Part shown: positions 1,020 through 2,865 of the stretch, piece after piece | How positions within the stretch are numbered: position 1 is the first letter of the stretch | Layout: every line of letters begins with the position of its first letter | Assembly: GCF_001428025.1 (NCBI RefSeq) | Contig: NZ_LMSC01000007.1 | Coordinates: 382,523 to 441,115 of the forward strand | Direction: 5' to 3' | Length of the DNA: 58,593 nucleotides | From: Phycicoccus sp. Soil748 | GTDB lineage: Bacteria > Actinomycetota > Actinomycetes > Actinomycetales > Dermatophilaceae | Notes under the pieces: model-generated | What the model saw: the letters and a program-made list of their open reading frames with translations, nothing else | The model's database searches: none | What the model was told of the DNA's origin: nothing | Translations under genes and position numbers: made by a program

Positions 1020-1048
1020 TTCAACCGGCGGACGTCGCGTGTCACAGT
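1020..1048 (+). promoter_or_regulatory. predicted cimA promoter
   Basis: -35 TTCAAC (1020-1025), 17-nt spacer, -10 CACAGT (1043-1048). The same CACAGT hexamer serves as the -10 in front of amt and glnD in this window. A GTG lies exactly 6 nt downstream, the spacing used by the apparent leaderless genes here. Confidence 0.65.
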
Positions 1049-1054
1049 GCTCTC

Positions 1055-1099
1055 GTGACCTCCTGGCAAATGGCGACCGCCATGGTGATTATCGACTAG
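1055..1099 (+). CDS. cimA leader peptide (branched-chain amino-acid attenuator)
   Basis: A 14-codon frame, MTSWQMATAMVIID, reads from GTG 1055 to TAG 1097. An internal ATG at 1070 would give a 9-residue version. The GTG is 6 nt after the -10 CACAGT, so the message would be leaderless and would start on this peptide. Val-Ile-Ile at codons 11-13 are the control codons expected for an enzyme that feeds isoleucine synthesis, and one of them is ATT, unusual in such a GC-rich genome. Two consecutive stem-loops follow immediately, the second with a T-run, as in classical transcription attenuation. Leader-peptide control of ilv/leu genes is established in Actinobacteria. Its use here is inferred. Confidence 0.7.
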   Translation: MTSWQMATAMVIID

Positions 1100-1100
1100 C

Positions 1101-1150
1101 GCGACGAGACCTCCTCGTCGCGCAGACCTCCCGCACCCGGGGGGTCTTTT
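1101..1150 (+). terminator. cimA attenuator: first stem-loop plus intrinsic terminator
   Basis: Hairpin 1 is GCGACGAG (1101-1108) with CTCGTCGC (1114-1121) around a 5-nt loop. Hairpin 2 is GACCTCCCG (1125-1133) with CGGGGGGTC (1138-1146), followed by TTTT (1147-1150). GACCTCC occurs both in the loop side of hairpin 1 (1108-1114) and in the 5' arm of hairpin 2 (1125-1131), so the two copies can compete for the 3' arm. Ribosome position on the Val/Ile codons just upstream could select between the structures. Confidence 0.7.
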
Positions 1151-1284: not shown

Positions 1285-2865
1285 ATGAGCGACCTGCACG
1301 TCTACGACACCACCCTGCGCGACGGTGCGCAGCAGGAGGGACTCAACCTCTCCGTGTCGGACAAGCTCGCCATCGCGGCGCACCTCGACGAGCTGGGGGT
1401 CGGCTTCATCGAGGGTGGCTGGCCGGGCGCCAACCCGAAGGACACCGAGTTCTTCGCCCGCGCCCAGCAGGAGCTGCGGCTGCGCAACGCCACGCTCGCG
1501 GCGTTCGGGGCCACCCGGCGGGTCGGCGGTCGCGCGGCCGACGACCCGCAGGTCCGCGCCCTCCTCGACTCCGGCGCGTCCGTCGTCACCCTCGTCGCCA
1601 AGTCGCACGTCCGGCACGTCGAGACGGCCCTGCGCACGACGGTGCAGGAGAACCTCGAGATGGTGCGCGACACCGTCTCGTTCCTCACCGCGGAGGGCCG
1701 GCGCGTCTTCCTCGACGCGGAGCACTTCTTCGACGGGTATGCCGCGGACCGCGGCTACGCCCTCGAGGTGGTCCGCGCGGCGATGGAGTCGGGCGCCGAG
1801 GTGGTGGCGCTGTGCGACACCAACGGCGGCATGCTGCCCGACCAGGTGGCCGCGGTCGTCGCCGACACCGTCGGCACCACGTCGGCCCGCGTCGGCATCC
1901 ACTGCCACAACGACACCGGCTGCGCCGTGGCCAACTCGATGGCCGCGGTCGAGGCGGGCGCGACGCACGTGCAGGGGACGGTCAACGGGTACGGCGAGCG
2001 CACCGGCAACGCCGACATCCTCACGGTCGTGAGCAACCTGCAGATCAAGCGCGGGCTGCCGTTGCTGGAGACCGAGCGTCTGCAGGAGGCGACGCGAATC
2101 GCCCATGCCATCAGCGAGATCACCAACGTCCCGCCCTACAGCCGTCAGCCCTACGTCGGCGCGAGCGCGTTCGCCCACAAGGCCGGTCTGCACGCCAGCG
2201 CCATCCGGATCGACCCCGACCTCTACCAGCACACCGACCCCGTCCACGTCGGCAACGACATGCGCATGCTCGTCTCCGACATGGCCGGCCGTGCGAGCAT
2301 CGAGCTCAAGGGCCGAGAGATGGGCTACGACCTGGCCGGCAACGACGAGCTGCTCTCGCGGGTCCTCGCGACGGTCAAGGACCTCGAGCTGCGCGGCTAC
2401 ACCTTCGACGCCGCGGACGCGTCCTTCGAGCTGCTCCTGCGTCGCGAGGTCGAGGGCCACGGCTACGAGTTCTTCGACGTCGAGTCGTGGCGCGTGATCA
2501 CCGACGCCCGAGGCAACGAGGACGCGCTGTCCGAGGCCACCGTCAAGGTGCGCGCAGGGGGTGAGCGCGTCGTGGCCACCGGCGAGGGCAACGGACCGGT
2601 GAACGCCCTCGACCACGCGCTGCGGCAGGCGCTCATGCCGGCCTACCCGGAGCTGGCCAAGCTCGAGCTCATCGACTTCCGCGTGCGCATCCTCGACGCT
2701 GCGCACGGCACGGATGCGGTGACCCGCGTCCTCATCGAGACCTCGGACGGGCAGACCTCGTGGGAGACCATCGGGGTGGCCGGCAACATCCTCGAGGCGT
2801 CCTGGCGGGCGCTCGTCGAGGGGGTCACCTACGGACTGGTCCGGGCCGGGGTGCCCGTCCGGTAG
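1285..2865 (+). CDS. cimA: citramalate synthase
   Basis: 526-aa enzyme condensing pyruvate and acetyl-CoA to (R)-citramalate, the first step of a threonine-independent route to 2-ketobutyrate and isoleucine. It belongs to the HMG-CoA lyase-like/DRE-TIM metallolyase family. The N-terminus carries DTTLRDGAQQEG (residues 8-19, the substrate-binding Arg-Asp pair), IHCHND supplies metal-binding histidine, and NGYGERTGN follows. A C-terminal LeuA-dimer-type regulatory domain begins near residue 390 and is the usual site of allosteric control. The length matches the CimA/2-isopropylmalate-synthase-like family (about 530 aa). The gene lies 135 nt downstream of the attenuator. The most likely alternative, a 2-isopropylmalate synthase paralogue, is less likely given the full-length similarity to the CimA type. 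Confidence 0.9.
   Translation: MSDLHVYDTTLRDGAQQEGLNLSVSDKLAIAAHLDELGVGFIEGGWPGANPKDTEFFARAQQELRLRNATLAAFGATRRVGGRAADDPQVRALLDSGASVVTLVAKSHVRHVETALRTTVQENLEMVRDTVSFLTAEGRRVFLDAEHFFDGYAADRGYALEVVRAAMESGAEVVALCDTNGGMLPDQVAAVVADTVGTTSARVGIHCHNDTGCAVANSMAAVEAGATHVQGTVNGYGERTGNADILTVVSNLQIKRGLPLLETERLQEATRIAHAISEITNVPPYSRQPYVGASAFAHKAGLHASAIRIDPDLYQHTDPVHVGNDMRMLVSDMAGRASIELKGREMGYDLAGNDELLSRVLATVKDLELRGYTFDAADASFELLLRREVEGHGYEFFDVESWRVITDARGNEDALSEATVKVRAGGERVVATGEGNGPVNALDHALRQALMPAYPELAKLELIDFRVRILDAAHGTDAVTRVLIETSDGQTSWETIGVAGNILEASWRALVEGVTYGLVRAGVPVR

Follow-up and report, generated by a model that had tools for sequence, protein, structure and literature searches.

In the attenuators of E. 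coli trp, his and ilvGMEDA, a hairpin survives when the ribosome stands at the control codons and is destroyed when the ribosome stands at the stop codon. T-box riboswitches sense amino acid supply in front of the same kinds of genes. Leader peptides without an untranslated 5′ end have reportedly been described for C. glutamicum attenuators by Neshat et al. in 2014. The citramalate made by CimA is the entry to a threonine-independent route to isoleucine, and it is a leader in front of cimA that we describe here.

In the C. glutamicum ilvBNC leader, transcription starts one nucleotide from the start codon (PMC11857589, in the sections available). As at the cimA locus, this leader (ilvL; the ilvB-II motif) carries branched-chain codons, a hairpin and then a terminator (excerpts of PMC11857589 and PMC10272879); its terminator and antiterminator have mutational tests behind them in the same sections of PMC11857589, whereas no overlapping pairing was detected in the cimA leader. 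The ilvB-II motif of Corynebacterium also has reporter data (PMC10272879, same excerpt). In S. lividans, the leader peptides ilvL, leuL1/2, trpL1/2 and others likewise precede amino acid genes with hairpins between, and several of them are reported to be transcribed leaderless, but the table of eight leaders does not include cimA, and the main text, as available, contains neither “cimA” nor “citramalate” (PMC8079986). Leaders of ilvB, leuS and trp were predicted in Actinobacteria by Seliverstov et al. (2005), and those of ilvB and leuS likewise combine short Ile/Val/Leu frames with terminators; the portions available of that paper contain neither “citramalate” nor “cimA” (PMC1262725). The main texts of PMC8632094 and PMC2965389 mention neither cimA nor citramalate, and no account of attenuation at cimA turned up in the literature searched, subscription papers being outside its scope. 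An earlier note on this DNA knew of no description of citramalate synthase attenuation by a leader peptide that itself begins at the mRNA 5′ end; leader peptides of that kind are in themselves already on record, in the C. glutamicum ilvBNC leader and several S. lividans leaders. Taken as a whole, the element in front of cimA is, on comparative grounds, very probably an isoleucine-responsive, ribosome-mediated transcription attenuator.

The leader upstream of cimA in Phycicoccus sp. Soil748

The window analyzed is a stretch of 58,593 nucleotides from Phycicoccus sp. Soil748, at positions 382,523–441,115 of contig NZ_LMSC01000007.1, and the features of the leader region are collected in Table 1. 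Among the matches listed, the closest named relative of its cimA is that of Pedococcus cremeus, with 88% identity. The promoter proposed in the earlier note, TTCAAC and CACAGT separated by 17 nt, stood up to a re-check of the sequence, with CACAGT at 1043–1048 and the GTG at 1055, 6 nt past it, and the 14-codon frame is likewise present from that GTG; that reading had not included the TGT at 1040–1042 directly before the −10, the invariant Ile codon, or the contact between the hairpin (P1) and the terminator (T). Since a simple scan of 780–1290 gave no match to the sigma-70 consensus, the promoter call in the window rests on conservation. At the −35 place, TTCA recurs by eye in 8 of 11 members of the genus (L001–L011), a weak agreement.

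Table 1. Features of the cimA leader region, in positions of the window
Feature	Positions	Strand	Basis
−35-like hexamer TTCAAC	1020..1025	+	sequence; weak
Extended −10, TGT + CACAGT	1040..1048	+	sequence; −10 conserved across copies
Leader peptide VTSWQMATAMVIID and TAG stop	1055..1099	+	14 codons; frame conserved in relatives
Putative regulatory codons ATT ATC (Ile-Ile)	1088..1093	+	conservation in aligned copies
Hairpin P1 (GCGCGACGAG/CTCGTCGCGC), thought to be ribosome-sensitive	1099..1123	+	fold; covariation
Intrinsic terminator T with T-run	1124..1150	+	fold, terminator scan, covariation
cimA, (R)-citramalate synthase, downstream gene	1285..2865	+	TIGR00977, 629.1 bits (cut-off 450)

At their curated thresholds, Rfam families matched only two tRNAs in the whole window, and a search of 1000–1290 returned one match far below threshold, to which no family was assigned. 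Although T-box riboswitches precede the same kinds of genes, the cimA leader has no T-box match, and a search for the ilvB leader motif found none in the window. Two further observations concern the surroundings of the leader. A 39-bp unit is repeated 2.6 times at 803–904, upstream of the leader promoter, and by eye contains an inverted repeat; and an open frame on the minus strand (2–1069) carries an HELGH motif and by eye is of the M50 peptidase kind, with no NCBIfam match.

Distribution of the leader in front of cimA

A protein search of 29 genomes, the genome under study and its relatives, found 20 complete cimA genes, and 19 of these have the leader upstream; the 400 nt searched ahead of the twentieth (L018) contain none. 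From these leaders we built a covariance model (R1), which in the order matched 123 of 297 genomes (E 0.001) and in the class 169 of 296 (E 0.01); a second model (R2) matched 79 of 296 genomes of the phylum. We examined subsets of these matches, comprising 110 loci from the order, 76 from the class and 29 from the phylum. The gene directly downstream is cimA at 105 of the 110 order loci, and 66 of the 76 class loci also lie before cimA, so that the arrangement proposed in the earlier note, a leader peptide with codons matched to the pathway and a terminator in front of cimA, proves to be widely conserved. The 29 phylum loci comprise 5 before cimA, 19 before ilvB (assigned by eye), 2 before leuB, 1 before leuA, and 1 each before prephenate dehydratase and isocitrate lyase (L321, L346), these last two being matches that may be fortuitous or may have a gene in between that was overlooked. 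The association of the element with cimA becomes looser beyond the class. At three loci (L058, L141, L151), short contigs mis-set the coordinates and gave negative distances.

The element is carried by 34 of 80 named cimA loci, in genera that include Cellulomonas, Demequina, Nocardioides, Nonomuraea, Amycolatopsis, Kutzneria and Pseudonocardia; among these 34 are two loci that carry the labels Ilumatobacteraceae and Acidimicrobiaceae (L289, 21.6 bits; L291, 35.9 bits). A scan for leaders with Ile runs found none at the 46 named cimA loci that the model did not match, the same scan recovering 28 of the 34 known leaders and nothing in 680 shuffles. In the order, 169 of 297 genomes carry cimA-like genes at E 1e-60. 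We examined the DNA upstream of 20 cimA genes that the model did not match. By eye, 16 of them follow an ilvE-like gene, at close range or with a gap between; the leader of one more (L232) escaped the model, and for three (L230, L234, L233, the last cut by the contig end) the stretch examined shows neither a leader nor a gene like ilvE. This suggests that the leader accompanies those cimA genes that head their transcripts, though exceptions occur. Within the genome under study, the search for a second copy gave only a weak R2 match (L317, E 3.9), which we rejected because by eye it looks like a gyrase-type coding sequence.

Conserved isoleucine codons and a probable leaderless start

Because the model rewards the bases of the Ile codons, the 19 leaders found by protein search serve as the unbiased check of codon conservation. 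In all 19 the last-but-one residue is Ile, and 18 of them end in Ile-Ile-X. The alignment of 100 loci used for the wider comparison (A2) omits L058, L126–L140 and six loci from a genus that was over-represented, and it gives the same picture: the last-but-one codon encodes Ile in all 100 copies (ATC in 54, ATT in 46), a count to be read in the light of A2 having been fitted to R1, which includes the Ile columns, so that both codons and structure are favoured. The preceding codon is Ile in 84 copies, Leu in 10 and Val in 4. Of the Val/Ile codons that the earlier note named for comparison with relatives, it is the Ile that is conserved; many copies have Leu or Ile in place of the Val before it. 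The third base varies synonymously, and this, together with replacements among branched-chain codons, points to a coding constraint on the leader, and codons matched to the pathway are conserved as codons, which is what is asked of a leader-peptide attenuator.

Among the Ile codons of the leaders, ATT accounts for 109 of 184 (59%), compared with 70 of 1464 (5%) in the longest downstream frame, cimA (Fisher p 1e-71, for copies that are not independent). This excess perhaps slows decoding or keeps the site unstructured. As a separate observation, one lineage has a single Ile codon (L020, L047, L052, L064) in leaders that are rich in Arg, His or Cys, and the amino acid sensed there may have shifted.

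An in-frame RTG with xAnnnT 6–7 nt upstream is present in 91 of 100 copies, compared with 0 and 1 in the other two frames; this contrast flatters the leaderless start, because the −10 helped to choose among start codons and the other frames may be closed by stops. TGTG precedes the −10 in 50 of these 91 copies, as counted from the listed contexts, and 2 of the 91 matches, with the hexamer GACTGT, probably arose by accident. We inspected eight of the nine exceptions by eye, and all eight have a −10-like box 9–10 nt before the start, so that their mRNA would begin a few nucleotides ahead of the start codon. The −10 is therefore placed, in most copies, where a leaderless mRNA requires it, for transcription starting at the start codon, and the leader peptide is probably translated from the very 5′ end of the mRNA.

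Hairpin P1 lies flush against the terminator

In the window, P1 folds as a perfect 10-bp hairpin (−20.4 kcal/mol, z −6.1), and T has 10 pairs over 1124–1147 followed by TTT. Folded jointly, the two have a z of −6.5, with none of 200 shuffles equally stable, and a simple scan of 780–1290 returned three overlapping terminator-like sites, all within T, where 0.2 were expected. The two stem-loops of the earlier note, the second with its T-run, are thus confirmed by folding, shuffles and terminator scan, and an intrinsic terminator lies between leader and gene, as an attenuator requires. Across A2, 96.3% of the cells in P1 and T are paired, 14 pairs have changes on both sides, and the covariation score is 0.380, against 0.152 for shuffled and at most 0.076 for slid alignments. 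The compensatory changes that had been anticipated in related genomes are therefore present in both stems among the 100 copies; within P1, the lowest five pairs (GCGCG) are nearly invariant and the upper pairs covary.

The spacing of these elements is also conserved. P1 and T abut with no nucleotide between them in 80 of 100 copies and are 1 nt apart in 18, with P1 itself ranging from 22 to 64 nt, and in 20 folded copies located before other genes the distance is 0–4 nt. The spacer from the first Ile codon to P1 is 8 nt in 90 of 100 copies, and the stop codon shares a single base with P1 in 82 and falls within it in 8.

A proposed model for control of cimA and its alternatives

From the codons, the frame, P1, T, the spacings and the gene, all seen by comparison of copies, we infer a start site, a response to starvation and a last step as follows. 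Transcription would begin at the GTG or right beside it, and the leaderless 5′ end would be where a ribosome initiates. With ample Ile-tRNA, the ribosome would reach the TAG, which shares the first base of P1 (some families would have it read into P1), and with the ribosome over the 5′ arm of P1, T would form and transcription would stop. With scarce Ile-tRNA, the ribosome would wait at Ile12/Ile13, where the 8-nt spacer would leave P1 free to form, allowing readthrough into cimA. Given the size of a ribosome, P1 would be free or almost free while Ile-tRNA is awaited, and would be opened by a ribosome that has reached the stop codon or reads on into P1. The stalling logic is that of E. coli trp, his and ilvGMEDA, with P1 as the hairpin of the hungry state, which should therefore oppose T; in those systems, however, the spared hairpin shares a strand with the terminator, and P1 does not. 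Because P1 seems not to pair with T, we propose for the last step that P1, flush with T and with its alternating G-C foot, would block the closing of the lowest pairs of T, a block that we would place inside the exit channel of RNA polymerase. That the flush position of P1 hinders closure of T in this way is a tentative proposal, which we hold at somewhat less than even confidence.

The classical last step would be an antiterminator that overlaps T by base pairing, and the earlier note had the two stem-loops compete for one 3′ arm through a repeated GACCTCC. This motif occurs in the window at 1057, 1108, 1125 and 1161, and so lies in both P1 and the 5′ arm of T, but it is found in P1 of only 5 of 100 copies (CCTCC in 14), and neither folds, covariation nor duplex energies gave an alternative pairing with T, so that the competition does not hold for the family. 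We folded nine loci with a ribosome masking the Ile codons or the stop, at four positions, and in all seven whose sequence reached the end of T (the long-P1 loci L107 and L113 ended before it) T was kept in the minimum-energy fold. By mutual information over 96 distinct rows, all the highest-scoring pairs are internal to P1 or to T, and the best pair between leader and T (columns 17–139) scores 0.128 against 0.621 for the top pair, with columns less than 80% filled, and hence most of the P1 loop, excluded. Duplex energies, each compared with 60 mononucleotide shuffles, put the complementarity between the leader plus P1 5′ arm and the T 5′ arm below that of shuffles (mean z +1.27), with z 0.04 for the loop plus 3′ arm of P1 in the same test and +0.54 for the leader, 5′ arm and loop against the T 3′ arm; the positive controls gave −4.47 for the arms of P1 and −3.72 for those of T. 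Some room for pairing is left by the P1 loops, 26 of 100 of which could form at least 6 pairs with the T 3′ arm. A pseudoknot between the P1 loop and T was considered and rejected, the loops of L007 and L017 looking too short by eye. The antiterminator that pairs with part of the terminator in a classical attenuator was not found here, which is why the classical last step is missing from our model, and we regard such a step, through GACCTCC or any other pairing, as very unlikely. With a foot of alternating G and C in P1 and runs of C and G in T, the pair looks built against mutual pairing.

Two other last steps do without an antiterminator. P1 and T may act as cooperative tandem hairpins, in which P1 aids T and a ribosome stalled at Ile opens the foot of P1, lowering termination; hairpin clusters have been proposed as termination units (PMC8355165, in the part available), and a P1 that is flush with T in 98 of 100 copies and nearly invariant at its base would suit such a unit. 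The Ile codons, however, lie 5–8 nt upstream of P1, outside its arm, and in the 8 copies whose leader extends into P1 the hairpin would be opened by the well-fed ribosome itself, so that we think this arrangement unlikely, if worth keeping in view. Quite unlikely, in our judgment, is a P1 that serves as a pause hairpin for RNA polymerase, with control exerted through the coupling of ribosome and polymerase and not through RNA folding: taking pause spacing from general knowledge, the position of P1 would put the polymerase in T, but a gap of 0–1 nt that is held in 98 of 100 copies despite the variable length of P1 is left unexplained. The strength of T in free RNA would also fit a constitutive terminator or insulator behind a non-regulatory short frame, a reading of the whole element that we consider highly improbable, since the conserved Ile codon varies synonymously with a bias to a rare codon, and the leader codons change with the downstream gene. 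Against the attenuator family more generally, codon substitutions in the S. coelicolor ilvB leader were without effect on regulation according to Seliverstov et al. (PMC1262725, portions available), which is a warning for this family. Also weighing against the attenuator reading are the lineage whose leaders keep a single Ile codon, the looser link to cimA beyond the class, and the three cimA genes, one of them cut short, with neither leader nor ilvE-like gene.

The same cassette precedes other amino acid genes

The leader, P1 and T also occur as a cassette before ilvB, at L133, L134, L177, L178, L192, L194, L201, L203 and 19 of the 29 loci L318–L346, assignments made mostly by eye, with L133 and L177 passing the NCBIfam cut-off. 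There the leader codons are often for Ile, Leu and Val, in ILVLP- or LVLIT-like runs. An LLLT leader precedes leuS (L132) and leuA (L319), and a cassette with Ile codons precedes leuB at L342 and at L332 (by eye; an ilvE-like frame follows); L319 and L342 pass the NCBIfam cut-off, and L132 and L136 (incomplete leuS) match below it. LeuB has a part in the citramalate route, and an Ile-codon leader in front of leuB fits that part. At L169, a cassette with one Ile codon followed by Thr lies before a threonine ammonia-lyase-like gene that scores below the curated cut-offs, and by eye L170 and L171 are of the same form; threonine ammonia-lyase is the other entry to isoleucine. Elsewhere (L174), the leader MFTPRIII and its cassette precede a frame of 103 aa that by eye looks like an ACT-type small subunit and had no NCBIfam match at E 1e-10.

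These copies raise the possibility, which we think rather doubtful as a general rule, that Actinomycetota use an interchangeable cassette in which a spared P1 blocks T by sterics without pairing and codon swaps retune the leader for its gene. The codon sets that this would entail, Ile for cimA, the ilvA-like gene and leuB, Ile/Leu/Val for ilvB, and Leu for leuA and leuS, are put forward with the same reserve.

Implications

Our comparison strongly supports the observation as real, a probable isoleucine attenuator of cimA that is widely conserved. What looks new is cimA as a target, the breadth of the family, and a P1 that abuts T without overlapping it: the architecture departs from that of the textbook attenuator, and the element represents a known kind of control with a new target. 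It supplies about 100 natural variants of an attenuator in which no textbook antiterminator was detected, and, because none was found, how a ribosome switches two hairpins that touch and do not overlap becomes directly testable. Some of the genera concerned are known for antibiotics. In many actinobacteria, the citramalate route to isoleucine, for which such control is unreported in the literature searched, thereby gains a plausible control point.
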